Source: a virus
IMG/VR virus record: IMGVR_UViG_3300008262_005074
Location: 1 to 35,177 of that record
Direction: 5' to 3' (one strand)
DNA length: 35,177 nt
The notes below the pieces were generated by a model that saw only the letters and a list, made by a program, of their open reading frames with translations, was not told where the DNA came from and made no database searches. A program made the position numbers and the translations under genes. Positions 6,425 through 34,233 of this stretch are shown piece after piece. Numbering within the stretch: the stretch's first letter is position 1; each line of letters starts with the position of its first letter.

Positions 6425-7234
6425 ATGGAAACAAATAAATTTGACGTATCGGTAGTATTACCTTTAAGCACATCAAAACATAAAGACTTTGATGTATTTT
6501 TTGAAAGATGTATTAAATCATTGCAAATACAACAAGTAGAAATAAACGAACTAATAATTGTACACACTGATGAATTTTCATTAAAAGAATTTTTAGGAAA
6601 TTTTGATTTTAGTGGTTTAACCGTAAATATGATTGAAAATACTGGAGACTTTGATTTCTCTAGTCAAGTAAATTTGGGGGTTGAAAACGCAAAAAGTAGT
6701 TGGGTTTCTGTTTTAGAATTTGATGACGAGTACTCAAGTATTTGGTTTAAAAATGTTGATAGATTTTCTAAGTCATATCCTGAAGTTGATGCCTTTTTAC
6801 CTTTAGTGGTCGATACTGACGATAAGGGGGTTTTTGTTGGATTTACTAATGAGGCAACTTTCGCAGCAAGTCTTAATTCAGAAATTGGTTACCTTACAAA
6901 TGAGGTATTATTAAATTATCAAAATTTTCAGTCGAGTGGAATGGTGATTAAAAAAGACACGTATATCAATAACGGTGGGTTTAAACCATCTATGAAATTG
7001 ACTTTTGTTTATGAATTTTTGTTAAGGTTAACTTACAATTCTGCAAATATTATGACAATCCCTAGAATTGGGTACAAACATATGAATTTAAGAGAAGGGT
7101 CTATTTTTTGGAATTATAAAAATGGTGAACAAAAAATAACAGACAATGAAGTATCATTTTGGATTGAGTCAGCGAAAAAAGAACATTTCTTCACCACCGA
7201 TAGAAATATAAAGTTTGAACCACAACAAGCTTAA
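6425..7234 (+). CDS. Glycosyltransferase, GT2-like
   Basis: A 269-residue GT-A protein. It begins METNKFDVSVVLPLST, the usual first strand, followed by FFERCIKSLQIQQVEINELIIV, the standard helix-strand of family 2. VLEFDDEYSS (about residues 95-104) occupies the DxD-like metal and donor-binding position. GFKPSMKLTFVYEFLLRLTY matches the later acceptor-site region where an (E/D)D-x-x-L-R pattern is usual. The stop codon overlaps the ATG of the sigma-like gene (TAATG). It probably acts with the other transferases of this cassette. Confidence 0.75.
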   Translation: METNKFDVSVVLPLSTSKHKDFDVFFERCIKSLQIQQVEINELIIVHTDEFSLKEFLGNFDFSGLTVNMIENTGDFDFSSQVNLGVENAKSSWVSVLEFDDEYSSIWFKNVDRFSKSYPEVDAFLPLVVDTDDKGVFVGFTNEATFAASLNSEIGYLTNEVLLNYQNFQSSGMVIKKDTYINNGGFKPSMKLTFVYEFLLRLTYNSANIMTIPRIGYKHMNLREGSIFWNYKNGEQKITDNEVSFWIESAKKEHFFTTDRNIKFEPQQA

Positions 7235-7989
7235 TGTTTTTATCGTCAGACACTGAAAATGAGATTTTTTATGAAGAGCAAAAGACGGTAAAAAAAGTAA
7301 AATCAACTACAAACTATTTTGATGTCCGTGAAGAAGAAGCAGTTAAAGCATATATAATTGCTGAAACAAAATATGAAAAAGAAGTGATATATAATCAGTA
7401 TCTTCGTAACCCACTCGATAAGATGATTGAGTCTATAATACGAAGATACAAGTTATATAGAAAGGATATGAATTACAATGACATTCATAGTGATACACAT
7501 TCTTTTTTAATGACCAAGGTCGATAAGTTTAAACCGGCAAAAAATAAAAAAGCATATTCTTACTTTGGTACAATTTGTAAAAACTATTTAATGGGTCAAA
7601 TATTAAAAGACCAAAAAGAAACAAATAGAAAAATATCTTATGAGGACATCTCAGCAACTTTAGAAAATAGACCTGATATGGTTTATTATTTAGAATTTGA
7701 AAAGATTGATGCCGAAAAAATTATCGACATATTTTTATTGGATTTAAAGAAATATGTAGATAATAATGATTTACACGAAAATGAGGCTAAATTGGGTCAC
7801 GCATTAATTGAATTATTTGGTGACTATGGTAATATATTCATAGGTAACGATAATAATAAATTTAATAAAAATATTGTATTACTTTCTTTAAGGGAGATGA
7901 CTAATTTAAATACTAAAGAAATAAGAGTTTATCTTAAAAAATATAAGGTGTTATATTTAGAAACACTTAGAAAAATACATAATCAATAA
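7234..7989 (+). CDS. Sigma-factor-like protein, candidate late sigma (T4 gp55-like)
   Basis: A 251-residue protein with a plausible sigma-70 family layout. Residues about 55-125 look like region 2: a helical stretch with LDKMIESIIRRYKLY, then FLMTKVDKFKPAKNKKAYSY and FGTICKNYLMGQIL, close to the D-K/R-F-D-P-x-K-G-x-x-F-x-x-Y pattern of sigma region 2. Residues about 216-248 (SLREMTNLNTKEIRVYLKK) resemble a region 4 helix-turn-helix. T4 gp55 is a small sigma of this kind that drives late genes. The gene sits at the border between the sugar cassette and the structural genes, a sensible place for a late regulator. Identification is by pattern only; a distant ECF-type sigma is the main alternative. 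Confidence 0.65.
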   Translation: MFLSSDTENEIFYEEQKTVKKVKSTTNYFDVREEEAVKAYIIAETKYEKEVIYNQYLRNPLDKMIESIIRRYKLYRKDMNYNDIHSDTHSFLMTKVDKFKPAKNKKAYSYFGTICKNYLMGQILKDQKETNRKISYEDISATLENRPDMVYYLEFEKIDAEKIIDIFLLDLKKYVDNNDLHENEAKLGHALIELFGDYGNIFIGNDNNKFNKNIVLLSLREMTNLNTKEIRVYLKKYKVLYLETLRKIHNQ

Positions 7990-13637: not shown

Positions 13638-14105
13638 ATGAGAAATTTAGATTTAATTATTAAAAAAGTTTTAAAAGAAGACCACAATATGAGGTCAAAC
13701 AGATATATGTTCTTTTCTAATTTAGAACAAATGAGAAGACAATGTGATTTATTATTAGACTTAGACCGACAAATGGTTGAGGGTATTTTAGATAATGGTC
13801 ACGATTGGGCTCAAGACCACATTTCAGAAGCAAAAAATAACATGGACCAAGTTTTTGATTTTATTATGAATGAATCAAAAAGAGATGGTATGGAACTATC
13901 AATGAATATTGATGATAAAAATATGGTAATGCAAGAAGGTCGTAAAAAAACTGGTACAAAACTTTGTGCTAGGGGTAAATCAGCGGCTAAAGCTAAGTAT
14001 GATGTTTATCCAAGTGCGTACGCCAATGGTTATGCGATTCAAGTTTGTAAAGGAAAAATTAAAGGGTTAGACGGTAAAAAACAATGCTCAGGGACTTACT
14101 GTTAA
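13638..14105 (+). CDS. Virion-associated-type protein with Cys/Lys-rich C-terminal domain (DUF5872-like)
   Basis: A 155-residue protein. The N-terminus MRNLDLIIKKVLKEDHN is an amphipathic helix like the leader helices on several proteins of this phage. The C-terminal 55 residues have the pattern KLCARGKSAAKAKYDVYPSA followed by YANGYAIQVCKGKIKG, with cysteines at three positions. This A-K-x-K-(F/Y)-D-V-Y-P-S-A-Y-A-N pattern recurs in phage and algal-virus proteins of unknown role and resembles DUF5872. It is the last gene of the plus-strand block, and its stop overlaps the stop of the convergent gene by 2 nt. A terminator hairpin lies just beyond, inside that opposite gene. Confidence 0.65.
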   Translation: MRNLDLIIKKVLKEDHNMRSNRYMFFSNLEQMRRQCDLLLDLDRQMVEGILDNGHDWAQDHISEAKNNMDQVFDFIMNESKRDGMELSMNIDDKNMVMQEGRKKTGTKLCARGKSAAKAKYDVYPSAYANGYAIQVCKGKIKGLDGKKQCSGTYC

Positions 14106-15110: not shown

Positions 15111-16970
15111 TTATCTCAATTCTCTTAAGTCAAATGTTCTAACACCATCAACTGTGATACGACCATAGAAACGGTTGTTAACCATTTTCTTAGCGTATCT
15201 TGTCATTATACCTTTAATCGGTGTAAAGTTGAATGGGTTATACATTGTAGGAGTTAATTGTAGAGGTACGTACGGTGCGTAAACATAACCCGTATCAAGT
15301 AAAGATGTTCCTTTGTGTCCTAACAAAACTGTGTTTGGTGGGAAGTAAGGGTCACGGTATACTTGGTAACGTCCTGCTAATGTACCAACTCTTTCAATAC
15401 CCATGTTGTACTGATCTTGCTCAGGAGCCGCGTTAGATACGTGGAAGTATTCTAAATCATCAAAGATTGCAGAGATTTCAGAAGAAACAACGATCCAGTT
15501 AGCCCCACCTCTCAATGTAGATTTGTGGATTTGTGCCGAAATTTGGTTAACCGCAGTTAACAAAGTTTGGTTCCAATCTTTTTGAGTGTATTGTGTTAAT
15601 GGGTTAGCCGTTGTACCTCTTTTCCATCCGTTGTAATCCCAACGTAAGTTCCAAGCCGCACCTTTACGTAAGTCACGTAAAATTTCACGGTCGATTTCTG
15701 CGGCAACTTGCTCAGATAATAAAGCTGTTAATTCAGCTTCAGCATCGATGTTGTGGAATGCAGAAACGTCTTGTGCCAATTCAGGAGACCATTGTGCTCT
15801 TAGTTTTCTTTCTGTAACAGATACAGTAACTGACTCAAGGTCAAAAGAAACCTCACCAATTTTGTCTTCGAATTCTAATTCTTGGTATACTCTGAAAGTA
15901 CAAGTAAATTGTGAACCTGCAGTTGCAGTACCAGCAATATTTAATGTTAATCCTGAATAACCATCAAGGGATGCTACACCAATAGAGCATGGTTGTTGTA
16001 AGTCAACTTCTAAATAGATTAAACCTGTAGCGTCACATAAATTATCATACGCTCCACCATTTCCAGGGTAAGAACCACTGTAGAATGTAGTATTTTGTTG
16101 TGAACCGTATTGTACGATACCTTTACCATATTTTTGAGTAACAACTCTAAATAACAAGTCACCTGAACCCATTCCTGAGAATGCTCCACCAGCAGTTGTT
16201 ACTGCATTTACTCTTAAATCAGAAAGGAATGATTCGTTGTCCATTTCTTGTCCATCAGGTCCGATTAATTTACCAGCACCTGCAGAAGAGAATCCTGACA
16301 TTACGATTAATGCTTTTCTATAAACTGGACCTCCGTCAGCACCTGTAGCGGCAACTTGACCACCTGTTAAAGTGTAAGCTGTAGGTACCATAACACCATT
16401 AGACCAAGCAACTGTAGTTGCGTTTTTAGTGATAGAAGAAAACGAACCTTTAGAATAGTCGAATAAACCTGCCGGGTCTAATGTCGCCTCATTACCTTCA
16501 TAAAATCTATCGTAAAGGTTTTTGTCATTTGCTCCGTAACCAGCTTGTGCTTCTGCAACTGTTGGTCCGTTTTGTGCTCCAATAGCACCGTAGTGAATAC
16601 CTCCACCAGCAGCGTTTGTACCACCTACTTGGTAAGACTGAATTTTAGGTACAAAGTAGAACAATTTACCGATAGGTAAGTTCATAGCTTGTACAGAAAC
16701 TAAGTCGTTAGCCAATAATTTAGAGAATACACGTCTTACGATAGGGAAAACTACAGTTTCGAAAGAACCTGAACTATCTGTTGATGCCGCCTCGTTAATC
16801 AAATGTGACGCTTGGTTTTCATACAATTGCGCCATATTTTCTTTAATGTGTCCTTTAAGACCATCTAGGAACCCTAATTTGTCCCATTTGTTAATTGTGT
16901 CTTCTTTGATAACTTTAAGGTGTTTCAAACCGATGTTACCAACAAGACCTGATTCTAATAATGCTCCCAT
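15111..16970 (-). CDS. Major capsid protein (T4 gp23-like)
   Basis: A 619-residue HK97-fold capsid protein of the T4 gp23 type. The C-terminal half aligns by eye with gp23: the DAEAELTALLSEQVAAEIDR helix, QISAQIHKSTLRGGANWIVV, GRYQVYRDPYFPPNTVLLGH, and YAPYVPLQLTPTMYNPFNF followed by GIMTRYAKK. The N-terminal 60 residues are an amphipathic propeptide ending HLINE|AAS (E60/A61), which fits the [LI]xE|[AG] cleavage rule of T4 gp21 (gp23 is cut at E65). It is about 100 residues longer than gp23; extra glycine-rich, beta-type sequence at about 130-350 probably forms an enlarged insertion domain. The gene follows the scaffold gene by 34 nt and ends at a strong terminator. Confidence 0.95.
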   Translation of the reverse strand: MGALLESGLVGNIGLKHLKVIKEDTINKWDKLGFLDGLKGHIKENMAQLYENQASHLINEAASTDSSGSFETVVFPIVRRVFSKLLANDLVSVQAMNLPIGKLFYFVPKIQSYQVGGTNAAGGGIHYGAIGAQNGPTVAEAQAGYGANDKNLYDRFYEGNEATLDPAGLFDYSKGSFSSITKNATTVAWSNGVMVPTAYTLTGGQVAATGADGGPVYRKALIVMSGFSSAGAGKLIGPDGQEMDNESFLSDLRVNAVTTAGGAFSGMGSGDLLFRVVTQKYGKGIVQYGSQQNTTFYSGSYPGNGGAYDNLCDATGLIYLEVDLQQPCSIGVASLDGYSGLTLNIAGTATAGSQFTCTFRVYQELEFEDKIGEVSFDLESVTVSVTERKLRAQWSPELAQDVSAFHNIDAEAELTALLSEQVAAEIDREILRDLRKGAAWNLRWDYNGWKRGTTANPLTQYTQKDWNQTLLTAVNQISAQIHKSTLRGGANWIVVSSEISAIFDDLEYFHVSNAAPEQDQYNMGIERVGTLAGRYQVYRDPYFPPNTVLLGHKGTSLLDTGYVYAPYVPLQLTPTMYNPFNFTPIKGIMTRYAKKMVNNRFYGRITVDGVRTFDLRELR

Positions 16971-17004: not shown

Positions 17005-18510
17005 TTATTTTATTTTTGACATCAAATCTCTCATTCTCATGAATTGAGGATTCTCATAAGTTTTACTTTCAATCAAGTTTGAAGCAGAACCGTTAGATGG
17101 TGTTTTAATTACTTGTCTCTGAATAGATTCAGTTACAACTTCATTAGAACCTTTACTTCCGTCTAATTCATTTTTGATTGTTTTGTAAAGTGATTTTGAT
17201 TCTTTGATAGATTCTACATTATCAAACCTTCTAAGAATGTTTATTTTTTCTTGTTTTGTTGTTGAATGTTCTGTGAACAATCTTGTTGAGTATGCCAAAT
17301 TTGAGTTAAAAACCGCAACTTCATTTAATTTGTTTCTAAAGAAATCTAAAGCTTTTTTGTATTCTTCATTTTTCTCTCTTAATAAATTAACTTCTTTTGT
17401 TACACTTTCGTTAGTAGGTCTAACTTTCATTTTAGGAAGTCCTTTTCTACCTGAATAATTTCTACTTCCGTTAGCTAAAGTTCTAGCCGCTTCGGTAGTT
17501 TCAGCATCAACTGCGTCAAAATCATAATCCTCCATGTACTCAAGATTTTTTTCATCACCAGCCATGTAGTCACTTTCATTTTTAAAATCATCTAATGCGT
17601 CATAATCTTCATAGAACTCTTCATCCATCCAATTTTCATTGTATTCTTCATCAACATAAGGAGTTTCAAAACCTTCTTCGTCTAAGTAAGATTCAGTAAC
17701 ACCATGTTTGATTTTACCATATGAAAATTTAGGACCTTTACCTTTCTTTTCGGATTTAGTTCCGTCAGACATTTCTTCGTCAAAACCTTTGTTATTAACA
17801 GATGATTTATTCATACCAGATCTAACTTTACCGAATCCCATACCTTTTGGTTTGATGGTTTCATGAACCTCAAGTTCATAAATTTTTTCTTCACCATCTT
17901 CTTCATCAAGATAAGATTCGTCAGTTTCCACTTCTTTTGTGTCATCCTCTTCAAAGACTAATTCATAAACAACGCTTTCATTTGTATTAGTTTGCATCGC
18001 TTCCATGTTTTCTGAATCGCCACCAGCCAAATCAATAAGGTATTCGTTGTGTGTGTTGTTATCGGTTAAGTGGATATTATCACCATCTTTTTTAACAATG
18101 ATACCATCTTCATCACCCATAGCCTTCCAAACTTTCAATACTTCTTCCGCAGAAGCTCCTGTCATATCTAATGGTGGCATTTCGTCTTCGTTATCAGTAT
18201 CTGCGGTTTCTTCATCTGAGTATTCAAACTCATCTGTATCAACTTCAGCATCTACTTCTCCTTCCTCTGTACCGTCTTCTGTTCCTACAACATCATCTTC
18301 ATCTTCAGGTGTTGTTGCGTTTCCTTGTTCTGCTTGTTCGTACAAAGATTTTTTTGTTGAGCCGTTTAATGACTCTCTTACTAATTCACTGATTTCTTCC
18401 TTCATTGTAGAAGCAAGTATTCCTTTTGCGTTTTCACTGATAGCTTCTTCGATTGACTTCATTTGTAATAAAGCCTCTTCAACTATCGAATTGTTTTTGT
18501 TTAAACTCAT
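17005..18510 (-). CDS. Prohead core scaffold protein (T4 gp22-like)
   Basis: A 501-residue, very acidic protein immediately upstream of the capsid gene, the position of gp22 in T4-like phages. Residues about 60-110 and 160-330 are Asp/Glu-rich low-complexity sequence (for example EDDVVGTEDGTEEGEVDAEV), including repeats of ESYLDEE. Residues about 360-440 form a coiled coil (EVNLLREKNEEYKKALDFFR), then FNSNLAYSTRLFTEHSTTKQ and EKINILRRFDNVE, a block recurring in scaffolds of this phage group. Possible prohead protease sites of the [LI]xE|[AG] type occur (SIEE|A near residue 22). The scaffold fills the prohead and is degraded before packaging. Identity rests on position, charge and coiled coil. 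Confidence 0.82.
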   Translation of the reverse strand: MSLNKNNSIVEEALLQMKSIEEAISENAKGILASTMKEEISELVRESLNGSTKKSLYEQAEQGNATTPEDEDDVVGTEDGTEEGEVDAEVDTDEFEYSDEETADTDNEDEMPPLDMTGASAEEVLKVWKAMGDEDGIIVKKDGDNIHLTDNNTHNEYLIDLAGGDSENMEAMQTNTNESVVYELVFEEDDTKEVETDESYLDEEDGEEKIYELEVHETIKPKGMGFGKVRSGMNKSSVNNKGFDEEMSDGTKSEKKGKGPKFSYGKIKHGVTESYLDEEGFETPYVDEEYNENWMDEEFYEDYDALDDFKNESDYMAGDEKNLEYMEDYDFDAVDAETTEAARTLANGSRNYSGRKGLPKMKVRPTNESVTKEVNLLREKNEEYKKALDFFRNKLNEVAVFNSNLAYSTRLFTEHSTTKQEKINILRRFDNVESIKESKSLYKTIKNELDGSKGSNEVVTESIQRQVIKTPSNGSASNLIESKTYENPQFMRMRDLMSKIK

Positions 18511-18886: not shown

Positions 18887-18940
18887 TTATTTACCTAAAT
18901 AATCGGACAATCTTTTCATCAAGTCAATAGATTTGTCCAT
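18887..18940 (-). pseudogene. Detached C-terminal tail of the prohead protease
   Basis: A short open stretch in the -1 frame relative to the protease gene, encoding 17 residues and ending TAA. The Leu/Lys-rich helix resembles the end of a structural-protein C-terminus and directly precedes the next gene. It is read here as the remnant of the protease C-terminus after an internal deletion. It could instead be an independent small ORF or chance. Confidence 0.4.
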
Positions 18941-19371
18941 ACCGCCGCAACATCACCCTTTGATGTGACAACTCCTCTTTCGTGAAAACCTGGACTTGTT
19001 AGTAATTTAATCTTACCCATTAAAACATTACCTTCCCACCACATATCCGTAATAATATGAGAAACTCGGTCTAAATCTATTAATGAAGATTCGGGATGAT
19101 TTAATTCTGATATAGACATCCCACGTTTAATAATCTCTTGATATTTTTCGGCCTCTCTTTTTAATATTTTTTCAGGGTAAACTCGACCATTTCTGTTTGG
19201 GACTCCCCATTTTTGAAGTGTCGCATAAAATACAAAAGGTTTAGAGTGCTCCAATTGTCCATATGATTCTTTAATTACATCGACATTTCTTGGTTCATTT
19301 GGATTAATAATTCCAGCATCCCACTCAACTAAAATTCCTTTACCTGTATCGTTTGGTCCTAATATTCTCAT
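18919..19371 (-). CDS. Prohead protease (T4 gp21-like), truncated and probably inactive
   Basis: A 150-residue N-terminal part of a gp21-type prohead protease. Typical segments are KWGVPNRNGRVYPEKILKRE, SELNHPESSLIDLDRVSHII with the likely catalytic His92, and the strand EGNVLMGKIKLLTSPGF. The family normally continues through a GVSSRG-type segment holding the catalytic Ser (Ser140 in T4) and an SxPS(T) block, to about 210 residues. Here the frame ends after GDVAAVWTNLLT. The -1 frame then holds a 17-codon tail (18887-18940, MDKSIDLMKRLSDYLGK) that looks like the family's C-terminal helix. The centre therefore appears deleted with a frame change. Position between portal and scaffold is as in T4. 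The ATG is 14 nt after a TATTTAT motif. Confidence 0.75.
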   Translation of the reverse strand: MRILGPNDTGKGILVEWDAGIINPNEPRNVDVIKESYGQLEHSKPFVFYATLQKWGVPNRNGRVYPEKILKREAEKYQEIIKRGMSISELNHPESSLIDLDRVSHIITDMWWEGNVLMGKIKLLTSPGFHERGVVTSKGDVAAVWTNLLT

Positions 19372-19392: not shown

Positions 19393-19842
19393 TTAGTCAT
19401 TTATAAATTCTTTTATTTTTGTTTTACTTAATGTAAAATACTTACTGTTTTTTAAGTCGTCCATATATACAGACATAAGAATTCTTTTAATTTTGTCTCT
19501 TAAAATTAATGATTTAAAATCTATTGATTGATTATGTATAAACAAAGTGATTTCAAGATTTAAAAAACTTTTTTTATTTTTTTGTATACCACTTGTTCGT
19601 AAGTCTAAATCTACAATTTGTTTTCTTTCAAAAGTTTGATGGTCTACTACTTCTAATAACGTATGTTGTATTTGTCTTTTTATTTCCCCAATTAGTTTAT
19701 TCCAATTTTGGTCTTCTTTTATGGGTTCAATCCATGTTTGTAATACTACGTAAACTGATTTAAAATTTTTTGAGTCAACGGTTCCGTAGTGACATTTTGC
19801 ATCATCAAAAACATTTAGTTTTGATGTCTTTCCTTTTTTCAT
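19393..19842 (-). CDS. Hypothetical protein in the head module
   Basis: A 149-residue protein with no recognised motif. It begins with a basic stretch (MKKGKTSKLNVF), has alternating polar/hydrophobic strands (VYVVLQTWIEPI, FLNLEITLFIHNQ) and ends in a Lys-rich helix. It lies between the bS21 gene (opposite strand) and the prohead protease. The strand-rich core and position would fit a head completion or neck protein, but this is only a guess. Confidence 0.6.
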   Translation of the reverse strand: MKKGKTSKLNVFDDAKCHYGTVDSKNFKSVYVVLQTWIEPIKEDQNWNKLIGEIKRQIQHTLLEVVDHQTFERKQIVDLDLRTSGIQKNKKSFLNLEITLFIHNQSIDFKSLILRDKIKRILMSVYMDDLKNSKYFTLSKTKIKEFIND

Positions 19843-19921
19843 TCTTCATACCTTATGGGTTTATTGTTTTAATAAATGTAAGTGAAAAAATAAAATTTGT
19901 CAAAATTCAGAAAAGTGTGTA

Positions 19922-19928
19922 TATTTAT
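19922..19928 (+). promoter_or_regulatory. TATTTAT motif upstream of the bS21 gene
   Basis: Plus-sense TATTTATATATAAAA, 21 nt before ATG 19950. It is identical over 15 nt to the element at 12136. The start codon follows an A-rich leader with no Shine-Dalgarno sequence. Confidence 0.55.
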
Positions 19929-19949
19929 ATATAAAAACAAAAAAAATAT

Positions 19950-20141
19950 ATGATTATTATTAAGGTAAAAAATGCCGGATCTATTGAACAAGCCCTTAAA
20001 CAGTATAAGTTTAAAGTGTATAAAACAAAACAATTAGAAAAATTAAGAGAACGTCAAGAATTTACTAAAAAATCAGTCAAAAAAAGAGAACAAAATAAAA
20101 AAGCAAGTTATCTACAAAAAAAGAAAACTTTAGAGTCCTAA
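19950..20141 (+). CDS. rpsU: Ribosomal protein bS21
   Basis: A 63-residue, very basic protein that fits bS21 over its whole length. It opens MIIIKVKNAGSIEQALKQYK (bacterial pattern: strand, then E-x-A-L-(R/K)-(R/K)-(F/Y)-K), continues with KLRERQEFTKKSVKKREQNK (R-x-R-x-x-F/Y-x-K-P/K-S-x-K-(R/K)-R), and ends in a Lys-rich tail. bS21 sits on the 30S platform near the 3' end of 16S rRNA. In Flavobacteriia it helps sequester the anti-Shine-Dalgarno. Some phages are known to carry bS21 genes. The gene is the only plus-strand gene inside the minus-strand head block, has its own upstream motif, and its stop abuts the stop of the holin-like gene. It may replace host bS21 on ribosomes during infection. 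Confidence 0.9.
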   Translation: MIIIKVKNAGSIEQALKQYKFKVYKTKQLEKLRERQEFTKKSVKKREQNKKASYLQKKKTLES

Positions 20142-20378
20142 TTATTTTTTATCTCCTTTTTTTTGTGTAAAAAAATCTAAAGAGGTTAACCCTAAACAAC
20201 CAAAAGTTAATAACCCAATTGTCTCAACTAAAAGTGGTGAAGGTTCGTATTTTCCACAACTAAACATAGAGATAAAAAGTGATATAACCAGCGATATTGA
20301 GCACATTAATCCAACAAATCTTTTTGAGGATATCCCACCATTCGCCCCCTCCATCATAGATTTAAAAAAATTAATCAT
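20142..20378 (-). CDS. Holin-like two-TM membrane protein
   Basis: A 78-residue protein with two predicted membrane segments (about residues 22-42, LMCSISLVISLFISMF, and 50-68, LLVETIGLLTFGCLGLTSL). They are separated by a short loop (SCGKYEPSP) and followed by a charged tail QKKGDKK. This size, topology and the GGISSKRFVG start resemble holins of Bacteroidota phages, which form inner-membrane holes at lysis. No endolysin is adjacent. The ATG overlaps the stop of the upstream gene (20375) by 4 nt. Another small membrane protein function cannot be excluded. Confidence 0.65.
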   Translation of the reverse strand: MINFFKSMMEGANGGISSKRFVGLMCSISLVISLFISMFSCGKYEPSPLLVETIGLLTFGCLGLTSLDFFTQKKGDKK

Positions 20379-21127: not shown

Positions 21128-21757
21128 CTAACTTAGTAAATCCTTCAATTTATCGTTGATTTCTAATAATGAATTTCTTCCTTTTGCTAAATCCATATAA
21201 TCTCCTCCCCCAAACAAATTTTCTTCTAATAATATATTCAAATCATTTTTGTTAAAACCTTCGGGAGTTACTGCTGCCCCTGCATCGGCCGGTGCTTCAG
21301 GGGTTTCTGGTGCTCCACCCATTGCTGCACCCATATCTGCACCTGCCTCAGCACCTGCCTCAGCACCTGCTTCACCTGCCGGTTCACCATCTTTTTTACC
21401 ATATAACTTATCAATATTATCAAACAATCCCGTTTTAGTAATAACCTCGGCGGTTTTACCTAATTCAGCAGCAACTGCCCTTTCAATTCTTTGTTGTTGT
21501 ATGTCTAATCTAATCTCATCATCAGAGAATCCTAATATATGTTTTTTAGCCCAAGATGCAGATACAGGAGACACCGTGTTTGGAATCTCAGCAACCGCAT
21601 CTTTATATAATGTGATTTTTTCTTTCCATAATTCAATACCCAATAAATCAGATTGTTTTGATGGGTTATGTAATCCTAATGTAAAGTTTGTTAATTCATC
21701 TTCAAACCCTAATAAGAATAAGTGAATGATTGCAATTTTGTTTAATTCGGCAATCAT
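21128..21757 (-). CDS. Portal protein (T4 gp20-like), C-terminal fragment
   Basis: A 209-residue ORF (ATG 21757) that continues the portal in the -1 frame. The same frame is open back to 21859 and there encodes KAYLGFEEAVGDGKNLSLLD and IRFARTINRIQK, the conserved portal core helix region. The ORF itself begins with MIAELNKIAIIHLFLLGFED, followed by FTLGLHNPS and SWAKKHILGFSDDEI, all typical of the gp20 stem and C-terminal clip/wing. Residues about 135-165 form an Ala/Gly/Glu/Pro low-complexity tail. Together with 21844-22770 it is best read as one portal gene interrupted by a deletion and frame change, not as a separate gene. Confidence 0.8.
   Translation of the reverse strand: MIAELNKIAIIHLFLLGFEDELTNFTLGLHNPSKQSDLLGIELWKEKITLYKDAVAEIPNTVSPVSASWAKKHILGFSDDEIRLDIQQQRIERAVAAELGKTAEVITKTGLFDNIDKLYGKKDGEPAGEAGAEAGAEAGADMGAAMGGAPETPEAPADAGAAVTPEGFNKNDLNILLEENLFGGGDYMDLAKGRNSLLEINDKLKDLLS
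21339..21374 (+). repeat. 12-nt tandem repeat in the portal C-terminal tail
   Basis: Three consecutive units of GCACCTGCCTCA (the last with one change) at 21339, 21351 and 21363. They encode the (A/G)EAG repeats of the portal tail on the minus strand. Such repeats can change copy number by slippage. Confidence 0.7.
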
Positions 21758-21843
21758 ACATTTTTGAATTCTATTAATTGTTCTTGCAAAACGAATATCT
21801 AATAATGATAAGTTTTTACCATCACCAACCGCCTCTTCAAAAC

Positions 21844-22770
21844 CTAAATACGCTTTAGGTTACCTGTATGTGGGTCTGAAATTTGGTCCCTTTTAAATTT
21901 ACTAGCAACTCTTTGTACATATGGGTCAACATCTTTATCATCCATATTCCCAACAAACACTTTAAACACCCTTCTTTCAGGTGCTCTCGATACACGATAA
22001 ACTAACATCGCATCTTCAGATAATAAAAGTTGTTTCCAAATACGACGTGATTTTTCCAACATAGAAGTACCGTAAGGTAGTTTTCTATCGTCACCTAAAA
22101 TTCTAAAATGAGCAATTTCCCATGTATTAAATTCCATGTTCTTTTCTTTCCAAGTAAACTTCAAAGCATCATTCTCCATTTCTTGTGAGTACTTATCAGG
22201 TTGGAACCTCATCCCTTTTTCTAATCTTTCTATTTGAATATTAGGTAATTGTTGGCAACCAACTACACCTTTTTCTGGGTCTAATTTTAAATAAACAAAG
22301 TTATCCCCAAACTTACAAGTATTTCTTGTCCACATAGGTAAGTTTGTACTAATATCTAATTTGTTGTTAAACAAATCGGCCAATACCGATTTAATTCTTT
22401 TTGATTCTGAATAAATTTGTAAAATATGACCATCTTTATCAGGTGTGGTAGACTCCTCCCCATATATGTCTAGTGCGGCAGAAATCTCAGGAGTATACTC
22501 CATTGATTCATAATCATAATATGACGCCATTCTTGTTGGTTCATAATAAACCGCCTGTTGGTATAGATTACCCTCAACTTTTTGCCATTGTTTACCAATG
22601 TACATAGTTTGCTGTGCTTGTAATTTTTCTTTTTCAAACTCAGTCTTATCCGTAGTTTTGAGTAGTTCTTTTTTATCAAACTTAAAAACAGGTGCTTGTT
22701 GGTCTAAGGTGGCACTAGGTCCGAAAACCTTACCTAATCTTTGCCATACTGTCATTTTATCTTGTGCCAT
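21844..22770 (-). CDS. Portal protein (T4 gp20-like), N-terminal part
   Basis: A 308-residue N-terminal part of a gp20-type portal vertex protein. Family-like segments are YYDYESMEYTPEISAALDIY (the M-D-x-x-P-E-I-x-x-A-L-D-x-x pattern), CKFGDNFVYLKLDPEKG, and HFRILGDDRKLPYGTSMLEK with SRRIWKQLLLSEDAMLVYR and ISRAPERR-like RVSRAPERRVFKV. A full portal of this type is about 510-560 residues. This frame stops after DPHTGNLKRI, and about 55-60 residues that normally bridge to KAYLGFEE are absent. The C-terminal half follows in the -1 frame. It lies directly downstream of the large terminase, consistent with the T4-type packaging order. Confidence 0.88.
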   Translation of the reverse strand: MAQDKMTVWQRLGKVFGPSATLDQQAPVFKFDKKELLKTTDKTEFEKEKLQAQQTMYIGKQWQKVEGNLYQQAVYYEPTRMASYYDYESMEYTPEISAALDIYGEESTTPDKDGHILQIYSESKRIKSVLADLFNNKLDISTNLPMWTRNTCKFGDNFVYLKLDPEKGVVGCQQLPNIQIERLEKGMRFQPDKYSQEMENDALKFTWKEKNMEFNTWEIAHFRILGDDRKLPYGTSMLEKSRRIWKQLLLSEDAMLVYRVSRAPERRVFKVFVGNMDDKDVDPYVQRVASKFKRDQISDPHTGNLKRI

Positions 22771-22808: not shown

Positions 22809-24587
22809 TTAAACTGTTCTACCACCGAATAACCATAAATACTTTTCATAATCACTTTTAGTTACTTGTTGTCTACCATAGTTCATAGTATTATAGATAT
22901 CTACAGGAACACCAGGATTAAAATTTTGAGAACTGTCTTTGAACATATTTGTTTCAGAGGTCCATGATTCTAACATCGCCTTTGTTTGTTCCGTCGCCTT
23001 TTCTAATTGAGCAAAAGAAGTCTCACCAACAAATATAGCCATCGCAAATGCCATGATTAAATCATCATGTTGGCCCTTTTGATGGTCAGGTCTACCGTTA
23101 ACATAAACAAAAGTATTTAATTCGTTAAATAGTCTTTGTGACCTCAAAGCAAAATCAAACCTTAACGATTCTTCAAAGGCTTGGATAATTAAAACACGTT
23201 TTGAATTAAAGTTAATTCCTGGTATTTTATCTTGTGATTTTGGATCCCATTTCCATTTATCGGCAGGATTGACCCCATCGATATATAAATTTTTATAACC
23301 TAATTCTTGTAATTTTCTAGATGTAGAGACACCCATACCTCCGGTAATGTCAATAACAATAAATGCACTATACATTGTCCCCCACTTAAATGCAATTTCC
23401 GCCAAAACATCAGGCGGGACTTTACCAATATATTCTAAAACTTGTTCTCTATTATCAAAATCAATAATAGATAATGTACTAAAATCCTCACTATCCCCTC
23501 TTGATACGTCAACACCCATAATATATCTATGACCACTTACAGGTTCTTTCCATTGCCAAAGAGCACCTCCCATAAATTTATTTTCAGGTTCTCTAATATG
23601 ATTTTCTTTTATTTTTTTCATGGTTTCGGCAGGTATAACACTATCCCCCGAACCTAAAAAGTTACATTCAAGTTCTTGTGATATTTTTCTTTTATCAAAC
23701 TTTAACTTTTTAGCCATCGCCTCAAACCAAGAACTATAAGGTTTGTATCCCTCATGTTCTATTTTTCTTTTTATATCTTCAAAATCTCTATCACTAACTT
23801 TAGTTTCTGAATAATCTAATGTTATTTCACTATCATTATAATCACCCCTATTTAACATGTAGTGAACAATATCGTTACATTTAATAAGTTTTAAATCTTT
23901 GGAGTAACGTGGGTCACGAAACCAGTACATCTCTGTAATCTTAAAGTCGTTCATCCCTTTTACCGCTTGACTATAAATTGAATAATAAATTGGGTCAAAT
24001 CCGTTTGGTGTTGAAATTACAATAACTTTACCTCCTGTTGAAAGGGACGCCATACAAGCAGACCAAAAATCTTCATCAGCGTTAATGTATGCGGCCTCAT
24101 CGAATATTAATATTGTTGGTGTATAACCACGCAAAGCATCTTTTGATGTTGCAACTGCCTTTACCTCACAACCATTGGTTAATTTAAAGTGTCTTTGTGA
24201 ATTCTTTTCGTTTGAAAATGTAACACCTAACCATGAAGGCCATTGGTCAACAAATGCACGGACCTTATTACCCATTTCCATTGCGGTGTCCATTTTGTTT
24301 GCAATAATTAGAATTTTTTCTGGTTTTGATTTTTTGGCAAACACCAATCTTTTTGATGCCCAAGCAGAAGTTACCGTAGATACCCCCGCCTGACGATACT
24401 TCAAAGCAATATTTTCTTCGCAAGTATCGTAGTCTTTAACTAACGTAACTTGGTCGTTAAACAATTCTAATGGAACGTATTTAGATTGGGTATTATCGTA
24501 AGTTTGTAGATAGGTTTTGAGTGCGTACGGAGTATCATTTACACATTTAGCGTACTCTAGTAATATTTGTTCTTTTGATAAAGACAT
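22809..24587 (-). CDS. Terminase large subunit (T4 gp17-like)
   Basis: A 592-residue packaging motor, close in length to T4 gp17 (610). The ATPase domain has a Walker A variant ALKYRQAGVST (about residues 61-71) and Walker B TILIFDEAAYI (about 158-168), with a coupling motif VIVISTPNGFD (about 188-198). The RNase H-like nuclease domain has YIMGVDVSRGDSEDFS (Asp360 region), FIVIDITGGMG (about 409-419) and GQHDDLIMAFAMA (about 524-536), giving the acidic triad that cuts concatemeric DNA. It docks on the portal encoded just downstream. It is complete and uninterrupted, unlike the portal. No small terminase was identified here. Confidence 0.95.
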   Translation of the reverse strand: MSLSKEQILLEYAKCVNDTPYALKTYLQTYDNTQSKYVPLELFNDQVTLVKDYDTCEENIALKYRQAGVSTVTSAWASKRLVFAKKSKPEKILIIANKMDTAMEMGNKVRAFVDQWPSWLGVTFSNEKNSQRHFKLTNGCEVKAVATSKDALRGYTPTILIFDEAAYINADEDFWSACMASLSTGGKVIVISTPNGFDPIYYSIYSQAVKGMNDFKITEMYWFRDPRYSKDLKLIKCNDIVHYMLNRGDYNDSEITLDYSETKVSDRDFEDIKRKIEHEGYKPYSSWFEAMAKKLKFDKRKISQELECNFLGSGDSVIPAETMKKIKENHIREPENKFMGGALWQWKEPVSGHRYIMGVDVSRGDSEDFSTLSIIDFDNREQVLEYIGKVPPDVLAEIAFKWGTMYSAFIVIDITGGMGVSTSRKLQELGYKNLYIDGVNPADKWKWDPKSQDKIPGINFNSKRVLIIQAFEESLRFDFALRSQRLFNELNTFVYVNGRPDHQKGQHDDLIMAFAMAIFVGETSFAQLEKATEQTKAMLESWTSETNMFKDSSQNFNPGVPVDIYNTMNYGRQQVTKSDYEKYLWLFGGRTV

Positions 24588-27198: not shown

Positions 27199-27222
27199 TA
27201 CTAATAGTTTGTATTTTTATTT

Positions 27223-29151: not shown

Positions 29152-30783
29152 ATGATAGACTCAGCAGACGGAACGGAAAAACCAAAAAACAAAACTCAAG
29201 AAGGACCAACAAAAACACCTGTTTTAGATAACTTTTCAAGGGATTTAATTAAGTTGGCTGAAGAAGGTAAACTTGACCCTGTAATTGGTAGAGATGATGA
29301 AATTAATAGAATTGCACAAATTCTTTCAAGACGTAAGAAAAATAATCCGATTATATTAGGCGAACCAGGTTGTGGTAAAACCGCAATTGTTGAAGGTTTG
29401 GCAAAAAAAATATTTGAGGGGGACTGCCCACAAAATTTGGCAAGTAAAAGAATTGTATCGTTAGATATGACATCTATAGTTGCAGGAACAAAATATCGTG
29501 GTCAGTTTGAAGAAAGGATGAAAGTTATTATTGAAGAACTATATGCCAATCCTGATATTATTATTTTTATCGATGAAATACATACAATGATTGGTGCAGG
29601 TAACGCCTCAGGATCTATGGACGCATCTAACATATTTAAACCAGCTCTTTCTCGTGGTGAGTTACAATGTATAGGAGCAACAACATTAGAAGAATACAGA
29701 AAAAATATTGAGAAGGATGGGGCATTAGAAAGAAGATTTCAAAAAGTGATCGTCGATCCGGCAACAAAAGAAGAGACATTACAAATTTTACAACAATCAA
29801 AAGATAGATATGAAAATCACCACAAAGTGTCGTATAGTGATGATATTTTAAAACTATGTGTTGAGTTAGCTGACAGATATATAACCGATCGTGAATTTCC
29901 AGATAAGGCTTTTGATATTATTGATGAGGTAGGTGCTCGTTCTCAAGTTGAAATAAAATTACCTGAAATTATTGAGGAACTTAAAAAACAAGCCCAATTA
30001 ATTAAAGAAGAAAAATTAGAAGTAATTAATAAACAAAAATATGAGGAGGCGGCAAATCTTAGAGATAAAGAAAGAAAAATATTATCAGATTTAGCAAAAG
30101 AAAAAGAAAACTTTGAGAAAAATCGTGACCAAAACAAAAGAGTTGTTACGGAAGATATCGTTTATGACGTTGTATCACTAATGACTAAAATTCCAATTAA
30201 TAAAATTACAACAGATGAAACCCAACAATTAATTACACTTAAAAATACTTTATCCACAAAAGTTATCGGTCAAGACGATGCTGTTGCAAAAATATCAAGA
30301 GCAATCCAAAGAAATAAAGTAGGTCTTAGTGACCCAAAAAAACCAATATTTAGTGGGTTATTAATTGGTAATTCAGGTGTAGGTAAAACTGAATTGGCTA
30401 AACAATTAGCCAAACATATGTTTAATAGTGAAGACTCACTTATTCGTTTAGATATGAGTGAATTCTCAGATAAAATCGCAACATCAAAACTTACGGGTAC
30501 CGCTCCAGGTTATGTTGGTTATGAAGATGGTTCACCATTCTTAAACAAGATTAAAAACAAACCTTATTCAGTTATCCTTTTGGATGAGATTGAGAAGGCA
30601 CATCCTGAAATATTTAATGTATTTTTACAGATGTTGGATGAAGGGTTTTTAACTGACGGTCACGGTAGAAAAATTAACTTTAAAAATTGTATTATCTTAA
30701 TGACCTCAAATGTTGGTACTCGAAAAAGTTTGCACCTGAATTTATTAATCGTTTTGATGATATTGTATATTTTAAAGATTTGA
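29152..30783 (+). CDS. ClpC/ClpA-like AAA+ unfoldase, main part (broken at C-terminal side)
   Basis: A 543-residue Hsp100 unfoldase that lacks the N-terminal Clp-N domain and starts close to the first AAA+ module. D1: GEPGCGKTAIVEGLA (Walker A, about residues 70-84), YRGQFEERMK pore region, IIIFIDEIHTMIGAG (Walker B, about 136-150) and ALERRFQ arginine finger. A middle segment holds the UVR-like KYEEAANLRDKERKI (about 297-311), as in ClpC. D2: IGNSGVGKTELAKQLA Walker A, GYVGYEDG pore loop and VILLDEIEKAHP Walker B. After MTSNVGTR the frame runs out into an unrelated tail. The family's next segment, which carries the ClpP-binding loop, is missing, and the remainder follows in the -1 frame. Confidence 0.85.
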   Translation: MIDSADGTEKPKNKTQEGPTKTPVLDNFSRDLIKLAEEGKLDPVIGRDDEINRIAQILSRRKKNNPIILGEPGCGKTAIVEGLAKKIFEGDCPQNLASKRIVSLDMTSIVAGTKYRGQFEERMKVIIEELYANPDIIIFIDEIHTMIGAGNASGSMDASNIFKPALSRGELQCIGATTLEEYRKNIEKDGALERRFQKVIVDPATKEETLQILQQSKDRYENHHKVSYSDDILKLCVELADRYITDREFPDKAFDIIDEVGARSQVEIKLPEIIEELKKQAQLIKEEKLEVINKQKYEEAANLRDKERKILSDLAKEKENFEKNRDQNKRVVTEDIVYDVVSLMTKIPINKITTDETQQLITLKNTLSTKVIGQDDAVAKISRAIQRNKVGLSDPKKPIFSGLLIGNSGVGKTELAKQLAKHMFNSEDSLIRLDMSEFSDKIATSKLTGTAPGYVGYEDGSPFLNKIKNKPYSVILLDEIEKAHPEIFNVFLQMLDEGFLTDGHGRKINFKNCIILMTSNVGTRKSLHLNLLIVLMILYILKI

Positions 30784-31088
30784 ATCAAGATGATTTGTTA
30801 AAGATTGTTGATTTAGAGCTTAATAAATTTTATGAAAGAATCAGTAAATTAGAATTCCAAGTTGAAGTTGATGATACTTTGAAAAAACATCTAATTGAAG
30901 TTGGTACAGATACTCGTTTTGGGGCTCGTATTCTAAAACGAACTGTCCAAAAATGGGTTGATGATGCTATTACAGAAAAGATTTTAACAGATAATCCCGA
31001 TAAAGGGTCGACGTTTATTTTAACGTATAATGAAAAAGATAAAAAAACTGACGTTAAAATAAAAAAACCCACAAAAAGAAAGAAATAA
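30687..31088 (+). CDS. ClpC/ClpA-like unfoldase, C-terminal part of D2
   Basis: A 133-residue ORF. Homology begins at KKFAPEFINRFDDIVYFKDL (from about 30723), the sensor-1/arginine-finger side of the Clp D2 module (F-x-P-E-F-x-N-R-x-D). It continues through the C-terminal small domain with TDTRFGARILKRTVQKWVDD (G-A-R-x-(L/M)-x-R-x(n)-(I/V)-x-x sensor-2 motif). The first residues upstream of KKFAPEF come from out-of-frame reading of the preceding gene, so this is a fragment and not an independent gene. A single -1 slip on the five-A run at about 30722-30726 would fuse both parts, but the fused protein would still lack about 30-35 family residues. Confidence 0.75.
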   Translation: MYYLNDLKCWYSKKFAPEFINRFDDIVYFKDLNQDDLLKIVDLELNKFYERISKLEFQVEVDDTLKKHLIEVGTDTRFGARILKRTVQKWVDDAITEKILTDNPDKGSTFILTYNEKDKKTDVKIKKPTKRKK

Positions 31089-33437: not shown

Positions 33438-33827
33438 GGGCCTATATCGGAATTGACGGGCGTTGGTTGAACAAATAGGAGCACGTAGGGACTGAATTAA
33501 TCTCTTTAAAAACTGATTCACATTATATACGGCAACGTACTTGATAACCTTTCAGTGGTTGGTTTAATTGCAACTGAGCAAGTTACTGTAGCTTAAGTAA
33601 AGCACGGAAACGGGGGGTCGGCAGACATATAACCTAGCAACAGAAGTCGTAGTATGTGGTGGATTACTATTGAACCCAAAATCGAATAGTAACCATTGGT
33701 TGTTGATTTACGATGGTGAAGAACAAATCAACTATTTTGGAACATTAGAAAATGTTAACCTAAACGTGTAGTTGTCTTTTGGACAAAACGAGCCGGACGT
33801 GGGAGTCGGAGCCCACTAGGTCCACCA
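33438..33827 (+). ncRNA. ssrA: tmRNA (trans-translation RNA)
   Basis: A 390-nt RNA gene with all main tmRNA marks. GGGCCTA (33438-33444) pairs with TAGGTCC (33817-33823) as a 7-bp acceptor stem, followed by A and an encoded CCA (33825-33827). The conserved 5' box GGAATTGACGGG (33449-33460) matches the tmRNA D-domain. CGTGTAG near 33765 matches the 3' P2 strand, and GTGGG/CCCAC forms the T stem. The tag frame ends at TAA 33594-33596. With GCA 33570 as resume codon the tag is ATEQVTVA; from GGC 33531 it would be 21 residues. The tag ends TVA instead of the LAA of most bacteria. It rescues stalled ribosomes and marks the product for proteolysis. Circular permutation is not seen. Confidence 0.88.
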
Positions 33828-33828
33828 A

Positions 33829-34233
33829 TTAGAGGGAGAAGAATTCATTAATGAACTTCTCCCTTATTTTTATCATATCTTCAGTATATTTACCATTTCT
33901 TGGTGTTACTTTTTTATAATCGTTAAGAACAAGATTTATTTTTTTACTTTTTTTGTAATGTTTGGAATTGATGTTTTCAACAACCAATAACCCTAAATTA
34001 TATCTATAAATTAAATTATAACAAGTTGAGTGGTGTTCTTCCTTTGATGTTCGTTTGGTTATAGTCCCTTTACCTGAAATTTGATTGTCTATAAATTCTT
34101 TTATATCCTCAAGTAATTTCAAATCTATGTTTGTAAACCCGACACAAATAGTTTTATTTTTACCTTTATTCATTGCAGATAATGTAATATGTCCATCCGC
34201 ATCAAAAAATCCTGATATATATTCCCAATTCAT
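33829..34233 (-). CDS. LAGLIDADG homing endonuclease
   Basis: A 134-residue protein beginning MNWEYISGFFDADGHITLS. The motif ISGFFDADG (about residues 6-14) is one LAGLIDADG helix with its catalytic Asp. It is followed by a basic strand region (IDNQISGKGTITKRTSKEEH) and a Lys/Tyr-rich C-terminal part, typical of single-motif enzymes that act as homodimers. The gene is free-standing, not within an intron or intein. Its stop codon lies 1 nt from the CCA end of the convergent tmRNA. TATTTAT occurs 14 nt upstream of its ATG. It probably cuts a related site in co-infecting phage or host DNA and spreads by repair. Confidence 0.88.
   Translation of the reverse strand: MNWEYISGFFDADGHITLSAMNKGKNKTICVGFTNIDLKLLEDIKEFIDNQISGKGTITKRTSKEEHHSTCYNLIYRYNLGLLVVENINSKHYKKSKKINLVLNDYKKVTPRNGKYTEDMIKIREKFINEFFSL

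Follow-up and report, generated by a model that had tools for sequence, protein, structure and literature searches.

The window (the whole stretch of viral DNA analysed, 35,177 nt) carries a gene for ribosomal protein bS21 inside a block of head genes. The genes and predicted elements were located as follows:

7234-7989, plus strand: probable phage sigma factor, 251 aa (TIGR02937 below cut-off; fold model)
15111-16970, minus strand: major capsid protein, gp23-like (PF07068, E=1.6e-71)
17005-18510, minus strand: probable scaffold-region gene, named from its position only, with a late-type motif upstream
18919-19371, minus strand: head maturation protease (phrog_207, E=2e-24)
19393-19842, minus strand: divergent neighbour of bS21, 149 aa, conserved even at loci without bS21
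19873-19880, minus strand: predicted divergent -7 element TACATTTA, part of a mirror-image promoter
19896-19899, plus strand: predicted bS21 -33 element TTTG, core TTGTC(AAAA) near-invariant in relatives
19901-19905, minus strand: predicted divergent -33 element TTTTG of the mirror-image promoter, overlapping the bS21 -33 element
19920-19929, plus strand: predicted bS21 -7 element TATATTTATA, a phage late-type motif conserved in relatives
19950-20141, plus strand: bS21 gene, 63 aa (PF01165 and TIGR00030 above cut-off; match to 7jil)
20142-20378, minus strand: convergent neighbour, 78 aa with two hydrophobic stretches, its stop abutting the bS21 stop
21128-21757, minus strand: C-terminal part of the portal protein, which relatives encode in frame with the N-terminal part
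21844-22770, minus strand: N-terminal part of the portal protein (phrog_213, E=1.1e-29), the gene being broken in the window contig
22809-24587, minus strand: terminase large subunit, TerL (phrog_2, E=2e-37; PF03237, E=8.1e-13)

Between positions 14102 and 28980, bS21 was the sole plus-strand gene called, and all other gene-sized ORFs lay on the minus strand. The first-pass annotation had described it as the only plus-strand gene within a 15-kb minus-strand block, which is accurate (~14.9 kb). The convergent 78-aa neighbour had no match in Pfam or NCBIfam, and the PHROGs search with the 17005-18510 gene gave no match. A fold search with the divergent neighbour yielded no clear relative (all Z scores under 8, mixed folds); phage neck and tail-terminator proteins were among its weak Foldseek rows, which is too little to name it.

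In the portal gap (21758-21843, minus strand), the window has a spacing of 89 nt and a frame change, compared to one in-frame spacing of 255 nt in 168 related loci. About 166 bp are therefore missing or misassembled in the window contig. The Clp-type ATPase gene (29152-31088, plus strand) was called as two frames that overlap (29152-30783 and 30687-31088), pointing to a frameshift or an error of assembly.

Elsewhere in the window, a complete tmRNA gene was detected at 33438-33827 on the plus strand (RF00023, 62.6 bits), which was missed by ARAGORN. tmRNA genes were also present in two relatives (L170:9430-9849 and L177:13804-14221). The predicted tag starts with GNVL in all three and ends with VTVA instead of the usual LAA, so that tagged proteins may escape the usual proteases. 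The tmRNA gene is adjoined by a small minus-strand ORF (33829-34233) that may encode a homing endonuclease, to judge by its LAGLIDADG-like motif (GFFDADGHI); the NCBIfam search with this ORF gave no match.

The 63-codon ORF spans exactly 19950-20141 on the plus strand. Its basic product (20 Lys/Arg, 6 acidic residues) had been read in the first-pass annotation as bS21 from end to end, and profile searches bore this out. The HMM search against PF01165 proposed there found the domain at residues 4-54 (profile positions 2-52 of 55; E=7.7e-10; 38.8 bits, Pfam cut-off 27). TIGR00030 matched residues 3-58 (profile positions 2-57 of 58; 30.4 bits, NCBIfam cut-off 28.95). Residues 1-62 were aligned with Flavobacterium johnsoniae bS21 in the PDB search (7jil, E=2.5e-10), and the PHROGs bS21 family matched weakly (E=4.3e-4). 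The ORF is a genuine bS21. The median dN/dS across 333 pairs of bS21 sequences was 0.13, with some values of ~1.3 from a clade with an unaligned one-codon gap included, and the ratio points to strong purifying selection on phage bS21. With this median, and with the gene carried by 170 related viral loci in IMG/VR scans (a count that includes overlapping fetches of one contig), the ORF is not a chance one.

In Bacteroidota, the aromatic residue 54 of bS21 stacks on the anti-Shine-Dalgarno (anti-SD) tail. Judged by its sequence, the window protein is Bacteroidota-like and has kept Tyr54; across 62 distinct phage records, residue 54 was Tyr in 52, His in 6 and Phe in 4. Fixed or nearly fixed in the phage proteins were Q14, F21, V/I23, Y24, K27, Q28 and E37, where cell bS21 has R14, R21, F23, D/E24, G27 and T/V at 28. 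Residues K7, L16, K17, K20, K22, T26, K40, S42, R46 and an aromatic at 54 were common, or nearly so, to phage and cell proteins. In a tree from 64 columns, in which little else was resolved, phage bS21 was split from cell bS21 by a single branch (support 100/100); the phylogeny with host and phage sequences suggested in the first-pass annotation thus returned a phage-specific clade.

TerL of the fetched IMG/VR relatives was 85-100% identical. bS21 lay on the strand opposite to TerL in 143/143 loci having both genes, at about 2.8-4.3 kb past the TerL end. The bS21 slot itself is not fixed, and the gene was missing from two related contigs. In L234 (TerL 93% identical), it has been deleted: the region is 511 bp shorter than its L233 counterpart and lacks the -7 element, the coding sequence and most of the gene downstream, but keeps the shared -33 element and the divergent gene. 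In L261 (281-kb contig), a different small ORF follows the same TATATTTATA, and no bS21 was found elsewhere in the contig. This ORF encodes 71 aa with a lipoprotein-like start (LSSC) and a basic tail. The notion that the 19393 neighbour always travels with bS21 was rejected, since the neighbour stays in both bS21-less loci.

Host assignment from bS21 was also discarded. The nearest cell proteins (up to 59% identical) span Flavobacteriales and Bacteroidales/Marinilabiliales, and because they spread over several orders, bS21 cannot name the host. By analogy with the published phages, a host among the Flavobacteriia is likely. The plasmid search returned only ordinary Bacteroides-type rpsU (43% identical).

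Upstream of bS21, the promoter-like element consists of TTTG, 20 nt and TATATTTATA. Across 59 distinct intergenic sequences TTGTC(AAAA) hardly varied, and a TAnnTTT-type element started 20-21 nt later. Read on the opposite strand, the core gives TTTTGACAA, followed after 20 nt by TAnnTTT, in the direction of 19393-19842. This arrangement suggests a pair of divergent promoters whose -33 elements overlap; alternatively, the invariant -33 could serve the neighbour gene alone. Overlapping divergent promoters fit the L234 deletion, which spares the shared core. They could also explain why bS21 and an opposite-strand neighbour were found co-expressed, at similar transcript levels (Chen et al., PMC9723584), if 19393-19842 is that neighbour.

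In the related 291,867-bp contig G001, ATATTTAT was the top upstream 8-mer (58/332 genes, 3.35 expected), and together with TATTTATA (49/332 genes, about 3.3 expected) it formed the most enriched pair. The bS21 -7 element fits this TATTTAT[AT] motif of the phage's own, and genes preceded by the motif in G001 include tail fibre, tail sheath and a tape-measure-like protein. The motif-type promoter ascribed to bS21 in the first-pass annotation is hence upheld as a prediction, with a conserved element of a type seen upstream of tail genes. A host-type class, TTTG-N17-21-TAnnTTTG, was found for 14 genes in G001, against 1.1 expected when computed with a slightly narrower spacer than that of the 14-gene list, and included endonuclease VII-like and SSB-like genes. 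For TATTTAT[AT] promoters in general, no clear -33 element was found (TTG in 19/82, compared to 7-13 in control windows).

TATTTATA is the exact reverse complement of T4 TATAAATA. A reading of the motif as a reversed T4 late promoter was rejected: full TATATTTATA occurs sense-upstream of 13 G001 genes and antisense at 1, and the sense orientation is therefore likely the functional one. In 26/82 G001 genes (L162-L176), TATTTAT[AT] ends 3-4 nt before the start codon, and it also lies close to the start codon at window positions 27200 and 28576 (minus strand) and 7993 (plus strand). A spacing of 3-4 nt is too short for a -7 element plus leader, so that either the start of the transcript or the start codon as called is doubtful; near-leaderless late transcripts are one reading.

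The 7234-7989 protein is highly conserved in related phages. It matched TIGR02937 (sigma-70 superfamily; E=2.6e-4, below the curated NCBIfam cut-off) and, weakly, Sigma70_r2 (E=0.027, below the Pfam cut-off); PHROGs and PDB sequence searches gave nothing useful. The best match of its AlphaFold model (mean pLDDT only 67.7) was sigma-E region 2 (rmsd 2.7 over 91 residues) at Z 8.8, a value that helical folds may reach by chance. Most other listed fold-search rows were sigma factors. T4 gp55 provides the analogue of a phage factor reading late promoters, and on this model the 7234-7989 protein is a reasonable candidate reader of TATTTAT[AT].

Pairing with the 16S tail was expressed as duplex energy against one assumed tail, GGAUCACCUCCUUUCU, for comparison only, and rpsU leaders below -13 kcal/mol were classed as strong SDs. 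None of the 43 called window genes had a strong SD, and in the window, as in G001 and G004 (a 166-kb contig), pairing upstream of genes was weaker than at randomly chosen positions. Genes of this phage group avoid SDs, and in this point the first-pass annotation, which described the phage messages as SD-less, was correct. The bS21 leader of the window shows no pairing (+0.8 kcal/mol), against < -13 for the exceptionally strong SD of autoregulated Bacteroidota rpsU. The rpsU leader was below -13 kcal/mol in 29/35 Flavobacteriales-labelled cell genomes, most with GGAGG, but in only 5/45 other cell genomes sampled (median of the 34 strong-SD genomes, -21.5).

A GGAGG leader (-12.2) was present in only 4 of 62 distinct phage bS21 records, all from one TerL clade. 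In G004, which belongs to this clade, bS21 is the only GGAGG-led gene among 162 called. Some other phage clades have weak AAAAGGAAAA leaders (-6.2). SD-dependent control of bS21 thus varies in the phage group, being absent in most members including the window and possible in one clade. Because the GGAGG clade is nested among SD-less clades, a gain of the SD is the simpler reading; loss elsewhere is less simple. Among the open-access papers searched, no later work dealing with SDs in phage bS21 leaders was found. The divergent promoter and the leader details of bS21 were not found reported before and are new here.

Phages carry bS21 more often than any other ribosomal protein. Its regulatory role in Bacteroidota is defined: it buries the anti-SD and controls its own synthesis. 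F. johnsoniae ribosomes lacking bS21 are better at translating SD-bearing rpsU and poorer with messages that have no SD; in this species, host rpsU itself stands out as the SD-dependent target, and it has an extended SD and is autoregulated (PMC9976891). McNutt et al. 2023 discuss phage bS21 in light of this autoregulation (PMC9976891). In lake metatranscriptomes, bS21 is transcribed with late genes in relatives of the window phage (PMC9723584). Separate, possibly late control had been suggested in the first-pass annotation: the separate control gains from the predicted promoter of tail-gene type, and synthesis in the window phage is probably late, but late transcription was already published in that study.

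On balance, the window gene probably encodes a functional bS21 of a phage lineage that would be produced alongside the structural proteins, under a promoter of its own, and would enter the host 30S subunit. Once infection brings host gene expression down, bS21, being loosely bound, would become limiting. Phage bS21 would then keep the 30S subunits replete and the anti-SD buried, as late SD-less messages would need. Ribosomes free of bS21 would translate SD-bearing rpsU, and the phage bS21 message would stand outside that damping circuit, because it has no SD itself. Filled ribosomes would lower host rpsU translation, and phage bS21 might progressively replace the host protein. It is conceivable, though we would not expect it, that the replacement goes as far as to shut off rpsU translation specifically, with the message beyond host SD feedback and the GGAGG clade carrying a feedback-controlled version. 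Not all of these phages would escape the feedback, as one sister clade has the GGAGG SD, and the argument would fail for a host like the sampled genomes outside Flavobacteriales, of which only 5/45 have a strong rpsU SD. Phage leaders with and without SD offer a direct test of whether the host bS21 circuit is taken over or evaded.

The first-pass annotation had further proposed that a phage bS21 could shift ribosomes toward messages of the phage, arguing from their lack of SDs. This is not supported, as most Bacteroidota messages equally lack them (PMC9976891); anti-SD burial cannot tell phage from host mRNA if both are mostly SD-less. If there is any selectivity, its source would have to be the changes at residues 14-30 that are specific to the phages, and the altered N-terminal half (Q14, F21, V23, Y24, K27, Q28) may change mRNA preference. 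Specialised ribosomes, in which phage bS21 replaces the host protein and its changed N-terminal half favours phage late messages (the first-pass annotation and Chen et al.), would agree with the long conservation, the separate phage clade and the seven near-fixed positions in residues 14-37 that differ from cells, on the part facing the mRNA (PMC9723584). Given that SD status separates no phage from host mRNA, we regard this as unlikely.

Less probable still is that phage bS21 enters ribosomes to poison host translation and not as a replacement. Pelagiphage HTVC008M bS21, which evolves under purifying selection, enters E. coli 70S ribosomes, whose protein output in vitro was then about 5% of that of the control (Mizuno et al. 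2019, PMC6375957). Since this unrelated protein, the only phage bS21 tested, nearly abolished translation, poisoning is possible, and several basic residues of the N-terminal half are lost in the phage proteins (e.g. R14Q, R21F, R30E). However, that host was distant and non-native, purifying selection acts over the whole window-type protein including Tyr54, and a late-type promoter with transcription alongside structural genes (PMC9723584) would place synthesis at the time when the phage most needs translation. An extraribosomal role, e.g. as packaged RNA-binding protein or head-gene regulator that is not incorporated into ribosomes, is the least probable reading: the fixed head-block position, the promoter in common with a head-region gene and the other small basic ORF that can occupy the slot would suit it, but Tyr54 and most ribosomal-bS21 residues, unneeded outside the ribosome, are kept.

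The probable replacement of host bS21 by a late-made phage protein can be set against four known systems. Chen et al. 2022 described five clades (a-e) of Bacteroidetes phages, 293-331 kb in size and with a GC content of 31.0-33.7%, where bS21 occupies the opposite strand of the same block (PMC9723584); the window, a 35-kb fragment, has 30.6% GC and its 291,867-bp relative 31.8%. A TerL at least about 70% similar to those of the clades would mark a member. Chen et al. reported Tyr54 or another aromatic as kept and proposed replacement of host bS21 (PMC9723584). As in the window, bS21 lies opposite to TerL, portal, protease and capsid genes and is flanked by two hypothetical genes, Tyr54 is kept, and PhoH and a Clp-type ATPase are present. 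This likeness is to the published description of the clades. The arrangement is thus already published for Bacteroidetes jumbo phages and the window is a further member. The paper reports neither a promoter motif nor a comparison of bS21 leaders for SDs (PMC9723584); both are given here.

HTVC008M is likewise an aquatic myovirus with phage-encoded bS21, for which incorporation has been shown, but it has an alphaproteobacterial host and acquired the gene separately from that host. Metagenomic megaphages of 634-735 kb (LR756502 and others) encode bS21 proteins 46-57% identical to the window protein. The LR756502 leader is also without GGAGG; unlike the window, its protein keeps the cell-type R-K-F-D at 21-24 and its gene directly follows a same-strand ORF, without the TATATTTATA element. 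F. johnsoniae bS21 (7jil) shares family, length class and the Tyr54 position with the window protein, but is only 44% identical, with at least six fixed substitutions in residues 14-30, and its rpsU mRNA has an extended, autoregulated SD where the window copy has none.
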